A stretch of DNA of 64,000 bases from Haliclystus octoradiatus (lineage: Eukaryota; Cnidaria; Staurozoa; Stauromedusae; Haliclystidae): assembly GCA_916610825.1 (NCBI GenBank), contig OU744453.1, forward strand, positions 11,055,826 to 11,119,825, given 5' to 3'. Of this stretch, positions 19,061 through 23,013 are shown piece after piece. Within the stretch, counting starts at the first letter, position 1. Each line of letters opens with the position of its first letter. The position numbers were made by a program, and so were the translations under genes. The notes under the pieces are model-generated. The model searched no databases. It was not told where the DNA came from and was given only the letters and a program-made list of their open reading frames with translations.

Positions 19061-21087
19061 AGACCTCTGGCAAGGTGTCTAGACATCTTTTGTCTGAAAA
19101 TTGTCTGGTTTTTCGACAAGACACTTGGCAAGCTATCTAGACACCTATTGTCTGAAAATTTCTGGTTTTTCGTCTAGACGTCTGGTTTCTCGTCTAGACA
19201 CTTGGCAAGCTGTCTAGACGCCTATTGTCTGAAAATTATCTGGTTTTTCGTCTAAGTGTCTGGTTTTCTGTCTAGAAGTCTGGCAAGCTGTCTAGACGCC
19301 TATTGTTTGAAAATTGTCTGGTTTTTCGTCTAGACGTCTGGTTTTCTGTGTAGACGTCTGGCAAGCTGTCTAGACACCTATGGTTTGAAAACTGTCTGCA
19401 TTTCCGTCTGGACGTCTGGTTTTCTGTCTAAACGTCTGGTTTTCATTCTAGACGTATGGTTTTCTGTCAGGACGTTTGTTTAGCTGTATACATGCCCATT
19501 GTCTGAAAACTGTCTGGTTTTCCCTCTAGACATTTGGCAACCTGTCTAGACGCCTATTGTCTGAAAACTGTCTGGTTTTCAGTCTAGACACTTGGCAAGT
19601 TGTCTAGACTCCTATTGTCTGAAAATTGTCTGGTTTTCCGTCTATACGTCTGGTTTTCTGTCTAGATGTCTGGCAAGCTGTCTAGACGCCTATTGTCTGA
19701 CAATTGTCTGGTTTTCGTCTAAAGGTCTTGTTTTCTGTCTAGGAGTCTGGCAAGCTGTCTGGACGGTAAAGGTCTGAAAATTGTCTGTTTTTCGTCTAGA
19801 AGTCTTGTTTTCTGTCTAGACGTCTGGCTAGCTGTCTAGACGCTTATTGTCTGAAAATTGTCTGGTTTTCCGTCTATACGTCTGGTTCTCTTCCTAGACG
19901 TCCGGCAAGCTGTCTAGACGCCTATTGTTTGAAAACTGTCTGCTTTTCTGTCTGGACGTCTGGTTTTCCGACGTCTGGGTTCTCGTCTAGACACTTGGCA
20001 AGCTGTCTAGACGCCTATTGTCTAAAAAATGTCTAGCTTTTTGTCTAGACGTCTGGTTTTCTGTCTAGACGTCTGGCAAGCTGTCTAGACGTCTTTTGTC
20101 TGAAAATTGTCTCGTTTTTCGTCTAGACGTCTGGTTTTCTGTCTAAACGTCTAGGTTTCTGTCTAGACGTCTGGCACAGCTGTCTAGACACCTATTGTCT
20201 GAAAATTGTCGTGTTTTTTGTCTAGACGTCTGGTCTTTCCTCTAGACGTCTGGCAAGCTTTCTAGACGTCTTTTGTCTGAAAATTGTCTGGTTTTTCGAC
20301 AAGACACTTGGCAAGCTGTCTAGACGCCTATTGTCTGAAAATTGTCTGATTTTCCTTCTATACGTCTGGTTTTCTGTCTAAACGTCTGGCAAGCTGTCTA
20401 GACGTCTTTTGTCTGAAAATTGTCTGGTTTTTCGTTAGACGTCTGGTTTTCTGTCTAGACGTCTAGGTTTCTGTCTAGACGTCTGGCACAGCTGTCTAGA
20501 CACCTATTGTCTGAAAATTGTCGTGTGTTTTGTCTAGACGTCTGGTCTTTCCTCTAGACGTCTGGCAAGCTGTCTAGACGCCTATTGTCTGAAAATTGTC
20601 TGGTTTTCCTTGTATACGTCTTGTTTTCAGTCTAGACGTCTGGATACCTGTCTAGACGCCTATTGTCTGAAAATTGTCTGGTTTTTCGTCTAGACCTCTG
20701 GCAAGCTGTTTAGACGTCTTTTGTCTGAAAATTGTCTGGTTTTTCGACAAGACACTTGGCAAGCTGTCTAGACGCCTATTGTCTGAAAATTTCTGGTTTT
20801 TCGTCTAGACGTCTGGTTTCTCGTCTAGACACTTGGCAAGATGTTTAGACGCCTATTGTCTGAAAAATGTCTGGTTTTTCGTCTAGACACTTGGCAAGCT
20901 GTCTAGACGCTTATTGTTTGAAAATTGTTTGGCTTTTCGTCCAGACGTCTGGTTTTCTGTCTAGACGCCTTTTGTCTGAAAATTGTCTGGTTTTTCGTCT
21001 GGACACTTGGCAAGCTGTCTAGACGCCTATTGTCTGAAAATTGACTGATTTTCCTTCTATACGTCTGGTTTTCTGTCTAAACGTCTG
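19061..21087 (+). repeat. Gap-proximal end of the left array
   Basis: From 19,061 the sequence matches 17,821 onward (offset 1,240) for a few hundred bases, then matches 3,240-3,560 (marker module 19,478; variant GGACGGTAAAGG at 19,761 in place of GGACGGCAAAGG). From about 20,282 to 20,389 it is repeated 699 bp later, up to the gap: TGATTTTCCTTC occurs at 20,347 and 21,046. The array is cut by the N run inside a module, after CTAAACGTCTG. Confidence 0.82.
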
Positions 21088-21287
21088 NNNNNNNNNNNNN
21101 NNNNNNNNNNNNNNNNNNNNNNNNNNNNNNNNNNNNNNNNNNNNNNNNNNNNNNNNNNNNNNNNNNNNNNNNNNNNNNNNNNNNNNNNNNNNNNNNNNNN
21201 NNNNNNNNNNNNNNNNNNNNNNNNNNNNNNNNNNNNNNNNNNNNNNNNNNNNNNNNNNNNNNNNNNNNNNNNNNNNNNNNNNNNNNN
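21088..21287. other. Assembly gap, 200 N
   Basis: Exactly 200 consecutive N separate the two arrays. A round number suggests a placeholder inserted by a scaffolding program, so the true missing length is unknown. The repeat sense changes from + to - across it. Left flank ends CTAAACGTCTG; right flank begins AAACCAGACGTCTAG. Confidence 0.99.
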
Positions 21288-23013
21288 AAACCAGACGTCT
21301 AGAAAGAAAAGCAGACGTCTAAACGAAAACCAGACAATTCTATGACAATAGGCGTCTAGACAGCTTGCTAGTGTCTAGACCAAAAAGCAGACAATTTTCA
21401 GACAATAGGCCACTAGACAGCTTGCCAGACGTTTAAACAAAAAACCAGACGTCTAGACGAAAAACCAGACAATTTTCAGACAATAGGTGTCTAGACAGCT
21501 TGCCAGACGTCTAGACAGAAAACCAAGTGTCTAATCGAGAAGCTAGACAATTTTCAGACAATAGGCCACTAGACAGCTTGCCAGACGTTTTAAACAAAAA
21601 ACCAGACGTCTAGACGAAAAACCAGACATTTTTGAGACAATAGGCGTCTAGACAGCTTGACAGACGTCTAGACAGAAAACCAGACGAGTAGAGGAAAAAT
21701 CATACAATTTTCAGAAAATAAGCGTTTAGACAGAAAATCAGACGTCTAGACAGAAAACCAGACATCTAGACGAGAAACCAGATATATTTCAGACAAAAGA
21801 CGTCTAGACAGCTTTCCAGACGTCTAGACAGAAAACCAGACATCTAGACGAAAAACCAGGCAATTTTCAGACAATAGGCCACTGCACAGATTGCCAGACG
21901 TATAAACAAAAACCAGACGTCTAGACGAAAAACCAGACATATTTCAGACAAAAGACGTCTAGACAGCTTTCCAGACGTCTAGACAGAAAACCAGACATCT
22001 AGACGAAAAACCAGACAATTTTCAGACAATAGGCGTCTAGACAGCTTGCCAGACGTCTACAAAGAAAACCAGACGAATAAAGGGAACACCAGACAATTTT
22101 CAGAAAATAAGCGTGTAGACAGCTTGCCAGACATCTAGACAGAAAAGCAGACATATAGACGAAAAACAGACAATTTCTAGACAATAGACGTCTAGAAAGC
22201 TTTCAAGACGTCTAGACAGAAAACCAGACGAATAGAGGAAAAATCATACAATTTTCAGAAAATAAGCGTCTAGACAGAAAACCAGACGTCTAGACAGAAA
22301 ACCAGACATCTAGATAAAAAAGAGACAATTTTCAGACATAAGGCGTCTAGACAGCTTTCCAAGTGTCTAGACGAAAAACCAGACAATTTTCAGACAAAAG
22401 ACGTCTAGACAGCTTTCCAGACGCCTAGACAGAAAACCAGACGTCTAGACGAAAAACCAGACAATTTTCAGACAAAAACGTCTAGACAAATTGCCAGACG
22501 GCTAGACAGAAAACAGAACGTATGGCAGGAAAACCAAACAATTTTCAGAAAATAAGCGTGTAAACAGCTTACCAGACGTCTAAACAGAAAACCAGACGTC
22601 AGGACGAAAAGCCAGACATTTTTCAGACAATAGGCGTCTAGACAGAAAACCAGACGTCTAGAAAGAAAAGCAGACGTCTAGACGAAAACCAGAAAATTGT
22701 ATGACAATAGGCGTCTAGACAGCTTGCTAGTGTCTAGACGAAAAAGCAGACAATTTTCAGACAATAGGCCACTAGACAGCTTGCCAGACGTTTAAACAAA
22801 AACCAGACGTCTAGACGAAAAACCAGACAATTTTCAGACAATAGGCGTCTAGACAGGTTTCCAGACGTCTAGACAGAAAACCAGACGTCTGGACGAAAAG
22901 CAAGACATTTTTGAGACAATAGGCGTCTAGACAGCTTGCCAGACGTCTAGACAGAAAACCAGACGAGTAGAGGAAAAATCATACAATTTTCAGAAAATAA
23001 GCGTCTAGACAGA
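21288..23013 (-). repeat. 1,726-bp higher-order repeat, copy 1 (cut by gap)
   Basis: The first right-flank bases (AAACCAGACGTCTAG at 21,288) recur at 23,014, and a GGGAACACC-bearing segment beginning at 21,999 recurs at 23,725, both 1,726 bp apart. Copy 1 includes a one-base T insertion near 21,590 (CGTTTTAAAC, where the others read CGTTTAAAC) and a 5-A instead of 6-A run near 21,907. A related segment at 28,640-29,820 matches 21,288-22,468 at a constant 7,352-bp offset. Confidence 0.86.

Follow-up and report, generated by a model that had tools for sequence, protein, structure and literature searches.

A satellite array of Haliclystus octoradiatus changes orientation at assembly gaps, probably because a contig was placed backwards

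Contig misorientation is a counted class of error in Hi-C scaffolding (PMC9848053, PMC11249255). For one test assembly, the YaHS paper lists 21 'inversions (misorientated contigs)' for YaHS and 55 for SALSA2 (PMC9848053). Satellite DNA accounts for 22.3% of the contig ends in human assemblies (PMC10234299). Here we describe a satellite array near the middle of the sequence C10 (OU744453.1; 20,733,292 bases) of the staurozoan Haliclystus octoradiatus (assembly GCA_916610825.1; 262 Mb in 33 sequences). The array changes orientation within a window of 64,000 nucleotides (C10:11,055,826–11,119,825), the window being the whole stretch of DNA that was analysed at the outset. Motif sense, gap positions and satellite variants along the array together suggest that the change was very probably made by the assembly, in which a satellite contig was placed backwards, and we infer that scaffolding or curation, not the chromosome itself, is the source of the reversal.

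The only run of N in the window is a 200-N gap at window positions 21,088–21,287 (C10:11,076,913–11,077,112), a placeholder and not sequence. The satellite reads in + sense over the 21,087 bases to the left of this gap and in − sense over the 42,713 bases to its right. We counted seven repeat motifs on both strands on each side of the gap, and the opposite-sense count was zero for all seven on either side; the motif TGTCTGAAAA, for example, has 186 + and 0 − occurrences on the left, and 0 + and 292 − occurrences on the right. With one side reverse-complemented, the two sides have 450 distinct 16-mers in common, compared with 0 as laid; the corresponding counts for 12-mers are 478 and 14. Given that 16-mers are common to the two sides only after reverse-complementing, the sides are one satellite family in opposite orientation. 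The initial annotation, made from the window alone, had described a switch from + to − without mixed units, and this is borne out by the seven motifs. Its block lengths of 21 kb and 43 kb are correct inside the window but are only the window part of longer blocks. The tandem periods of the family are 20, 58 and 78 bases. An 8-base palindrome in the repeat, GTCTAGAC, has 1,283 exact copies in window positions 1–64,000 (a mean of 1 per 50 bases), and the GC (guanine plus cytosine) fraction per 2 kb is 0.415–0.433 to the left of the gap and 0.397–0.413 to its right.

To place the window in its array, C10:10,940,000–11,199,825 was read whole, and the sequence beyond it in spots and stretches. Four pieces can be distinguished, referred to here as L (left, +), M (11,077,113–11,318,704, −), m (11,319,205–11,335,607, −) and R (right, +). 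The satellite of L begins at ~10,952,250, with non-satellite sequence on its left, and forms a + block of 124,663 bases that ends at the window gap (C10:11,076,912); there is no N in C10:10,940,000–11,076,912. Window positions 1–21,087, which contain only + motifs, are the right end of this contig. Window positions 21,288–64,000 are the left end of M, the contig that was probably placed backwards; M is 241.6 kb long, and is a single contig over the coordinates given above, provided that its unread parts hold no gap. The − block is split by a 500-N gap (C10:11,318,705–11,319,204), beyond which lies m, a piece of 16.4 kb with a BEL/Pao retrotransposon at its end. The last − satellite is at ~11,329,980 and is followed by the retrotransposon, then by a 200-N gap (11,335,608–11,335,807) and then by + satellite from 11,335,808. 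Spots at 11,340,000 and 11,360,000 are in + sense, and R ends at ~11,365,900 in non-satellite sequence. Two scopes apply throughout: ~106 kb of the − block (within 11,199,826–11,316,099, less 10 kb) was seen at two spots only, and 10 kb of R (11,346,400–11,356,399) was seen as one 100-base spot, in + sense. The stretches of M that were read consist of satellite only.

Both orientation changes coincide with N gaps that bound the reversed part: the outer pieces are +, and everything read between them is −. At the second change, a 5.6-kb transposon sits between the last − satellite and the 200-N gap, and the switch is strictly somewhere across the element plus the gap. We considered insertion of the retrotransposon as the cause of this switch and rejected it. 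An insertion does not invert its flanking sequence, and the element abuts the gap; the second change is therefore placed at the gap. A final scan with nine motifs over seven contiguous satellite stretches (290,848 bases in all) gave 17,578 matches, of which 8,711 were + matches in L and R and 8,867 were − matches in M and m, with each stretch giving matches in one sense only. A 40-base pattern, allowing up to 2 mismatches, was found at no fewer than 706 places in + sense genome-wide (the repeat counts of the search tool are lower bounds and may be incomplete). Of these, 608 are in L, 33 and 33 are in the read parts of R, and the remaining 32 are about the expected content of the unread 10 kb of R, which therefore leaves little or no + sense for the unread part of M.

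These gap positions bear on the alternative of a real inversion of some 240–260 kb or more, perhaps in one homologue, the heterozygous breakpoints of which would have broken the assembly into the present contigs. Known inversions in satellites make such an event possible (PMC11062924). Of 38 misorientations in human assemblies, moreover, 31 overlapped inversion polymorphisms that were already known, mostly with segmental duplications at their flanks (PMC10234299), and this keeps the alternative alive. Against it, both changes lie at an N gap, or across a transposon that abuts one, and none lies inside the 290,848 bases of satellite that were read; we regard an inversion of this kind as improbable.

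The satellite variants provide a second line of evidence. Three classes were defined from 25- and 31-mers: L-type, R-type and M1-type, the last being the class to the right of the gap in the window (M1). An M1-type 60-mer has at least 32 exact matches, all −, at 11,078,210–11,258,043. At least 33 exact matches were found for an R-type 80-mer, 10 in m (−) and 23 in R (+), and 500-base pieces of m and R are up to 98–99% similar. An L-type 60-mer has at least 73 exact matches, of which 45 are in L (+) and 28 are at 11,287,713–11,317,752 (−); a second L-type pattern, an 80-mer, has at least 48, with 45 in L and 3 at 11,288,988–11,318,365. All four class-specific patterns were searched for in the whole genome, and among the matches listed none lies outside this C10 array. 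The far end of the − block in M is thus L-type satellite in − sense. Variants private to each side of the gap, as reported in the initial annotation, are real, but the left-hand class reappears at the far end of the − block. At the 500-N gap, in contrast to the two 200-N gaps, L-type satellite gives way to R-type with no change of orientation. We also considered whether the right end of M, in its present direction, is the natural neighbour of R. The 500-N gap shows that the R-type sequence there is the separate piece m, and the similarity between m and R therefore says nothing about M.

The change of class inside M is contained in 10 kb that was read whole (C10:11,279,000–11,288,999), holds no N, and is all in − sense with no + motifs. 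Up to ~11,286,500, class-private 25-mers are mostly M1-type (7–40% per 500 bases), with R-type at no more than 4% and L-type at no more than 3%; this part is a somewhat diverged form of M1-type. From ~11,287,500, the private 25-mers are L-type (41–67% per 500 bases), with M1-type at less than 1%. The class change is located at ~11,286,500–11,287,500, in gap-free sequence. As the transition is resolved and all in − sense, the order in the sense of the repeat is L-type and then M1-type. L is L-type, and its + sense points at the window gap. If M were turned round in place, it would continue L: the L-type satellite of L would be followed by the gap and then by the L-type and the M1-type satellite of M. 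Should a further gap lie between the right side of the window and 11,279,000, support for the flip would apply to the contig that holds the transition, and for the contig in the window the flip would be an inference only.

We also compared the L-type end of M with the two halves of L, using private 25-mers, here those absent from M1 and R as far as these were read. Of 1,255 distinct private 25-mers in the outer 2.6 kb of the far end of M, 416 are confined to the gap-facing (right) half of L and 20 to the left half; a further 420 are found in both halves and 399 in neither. In a 1.5-kb L-type piece beside the transition (931 private 25-mers), the counts are 258 right-only, 0 left-only, 383 both and 290 neither. 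For all shared 25-mers, the right:left counts are 494:24 for the outer piece and 289:3 for the inner piece, or 48:4 and 21:2 when counted as runs, which are given because k-mers that overlap are not independent of one another. In L itself, 4,392 25-mers are right-only and 3,516 are left-only, and seven control pieces gave right:left ratios of 1.5–3.3 (0.9–2.0 in runs). The share of the outer piece found along L fluctuates but rises overall towards the gap (Spearman's ρ = 0.85; 0.74 after correction for window diversity); it is 0.255 in the first 5 kb and reaches its highest value, 0.565, in the last 4.7 kb. In a second count, the outer piece peaks in the 23rd of 26 counting windows, which end 3.4 kb before the gap. 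For the window gap, turning M restores continuity (L-type far end; 416 versus 20). Overlapping contig ends at the window gap were considered as well; no near-identical overlap was seen in either arrangement. Ten 500-base pieces of the last 5 kb of L match M1, m and R at 77–88%, and the far end of M matches L at up to 86% over 1.8 kb.

The same comparisons bear on whether M or m is foreign here, either as a copy from the alternative haplotype or as a piece of array from elsewhere that was placed for want of a better position. Two observations would fit this: the contig ends now adjoining the window gap have few private variants in common, and the joining of L-type to R-type satellite at the 500-N gap looks unnatural. 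Against a foreign origin, the class-specific exact patterns matched only this C10 array among the matches listed, and the far end of M resembles the gap-facing half of L more than the other half, as a neighbour would. A haplotype copy of L should, in addition, match it far above the 80–86% seen for the outer 2.6 kb of M. We consider a foreign origin very unlikely.

An inversion in the chromosome or in one homologue would suit the variant map too. If the M block (with m) had been inverted after the classes formed, with breakpoints in the unresolved gaps, the map would agree with this no less than with a flipped contig. The arrangement of m is harder to accommodate. If M and m were inverted together, the starting order would have R-type m between L-type L and the L-type end of M, breaking the variant order; if they were inverted singly, two events ending at three gaps would be needed. 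Such an inversion seems unlikely.

In the favoured explanation, a contig placed backwards, one satellite array would be held in four pieces, of which L and R are anchored in non-satellite sequence and are both +. M and m would have been laid down reversed, M having, as far as read, no unique sequence to fix its direction. Turning M in place would make the array + across the window gap and set the L-type end of M against L-type L, and turning m as well would make the rest of the array +. One kind of error acting on contigs that are hard to orient is the simplest account of both switches, of their coincidence with gaps and of the return of L-type satellite at the wrong end. Of the two possibilities raised by the initial annotation, a real inversion or a join the wrong way round, the evidence favours the wrong-way contig, while leaving some room for an inversion. 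Its doubt about the join itself is upheld to the extent that the ends that now meet are probably not neighbours; the proper neighbour of L is nevertheless probably the same contig, joined at its opposite end.

Several observations weigh against a contig placed backwards. The lengths of the gaps are probably those of placeholders, and real breakpoints could therefore be concealed in unread array; moreover, ~106 kb of the − block within 11,199,826–11,316,099 was read at two spots only. In the present scaffold, R-type m already adjoins R-type R, and the 500-N join of the L-type end of M to R-type m looks wrong in either direction. Along L, the inner piece has a weak trend (Spearman's ρ = 0.35, P = 0.08; 0.10 after correction), and the seven controls have uncorrected values of 0.10–0.46, three of them with P < 0.05 (after correction, all seven are within −0.27 to 0.14). 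The best-scoring BLAST alignments of the outer 2.6 kb of the far end of M (L, 81.2% over 2,702 columns; M1, 80.5% over 2,543; R, 79.9% over 2,492) set this end only modestly closer to L. BLAST distinguishes the classes far less well than private k-mers do, and the case rests on the latter. In the last 2 kb of L, 1.4–3.1% of 25-mers are M1-private (0 in the preceding 6 kb) and 0.4–1.4% are R-private; the M1-private 25-mers may be a faint hint in favour of the present neighbour. Finally, private k-mers revealed no gradient towards R-type at the other end of M. Along m, M1-private k-mers go up and down with no clear trend, and we draw nothing from them on the direction of m.

The surroundings of the array contain further repeats. 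The BEL/Pao-type retrotransposon at C10:11,330,000–11,335,607 has its frame on the − strand and is cut by the 200-N gap. Separate pieces of it score above the Pfam cut-offs for Peptidase_A17 (Pao), DUF1759 and Integrase_H2C2, and matches to the integrase core and to two aspartyl protease models are below the cut-offs; the part of the element that is present contains no direct repeats with a length of at least 40 bases. At the other edge, broken frames on the − strand (C10:10,950,000–10,952,247) end at the left border of the array, and we take them to resemble the reverse transcriptase and integrase of a Gypsy-like element. In the left flank, ~9 kb from the array, C10:10,940,410–10,943,454 is occupied by another, unlike tandem repeat, of ~209 bases. 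The start of R (C10:11,335,808–11,346,399) has a higher-order repeat, in which an ungapped shift of 4,083 bases gives matches at 82% of positions; six other stretches, one of them further right in R, have no long period as strong (in m, 0.62 at 488 and 0.61 at 1,928). Among the matches listed, TTAGGG arrays on C1 are at its start, near 39,976,265 and, as a short internal array, at 4,089,029–4,089,094. Different tools use 200-N and 500-N gaps; a search of the literature for conventions of 200 bp and 500 bp, as possible signs of the software that made the assembly, turned up nothing of use, and no argument here depends on gap size in this way.

The switch is probably an assembly error to be corrected and not a discovery, and it matters for assembly rather than for biology: work that uses this chromosome to address strand switches, the structure of centromeres or inversions in satellites would probably record a false inversion at this point. 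The analysis also indicates that, where a contig lacks unique sequence, the variant classes of a satellite can suggest which way round it belongs. The closest described counterparts are the misorientations of Hi-C scaffolds produced by YaHS, SALSA2 and similar tools, in which, as here, a contig is reversed between N gaps; here, the evidence for reversal comes from satellite variants and not from a truth assembly. Primate alpha-satellite inversions are alike in that a block of monomers in the opposite orientation lies inside one array. As described for the primates, native ultra-long reads confirm the breakpoints (PMC11062924), whereas in H. octoradiatus both changes coincide with unsequenced gaps, one of them with a transposon beside it.
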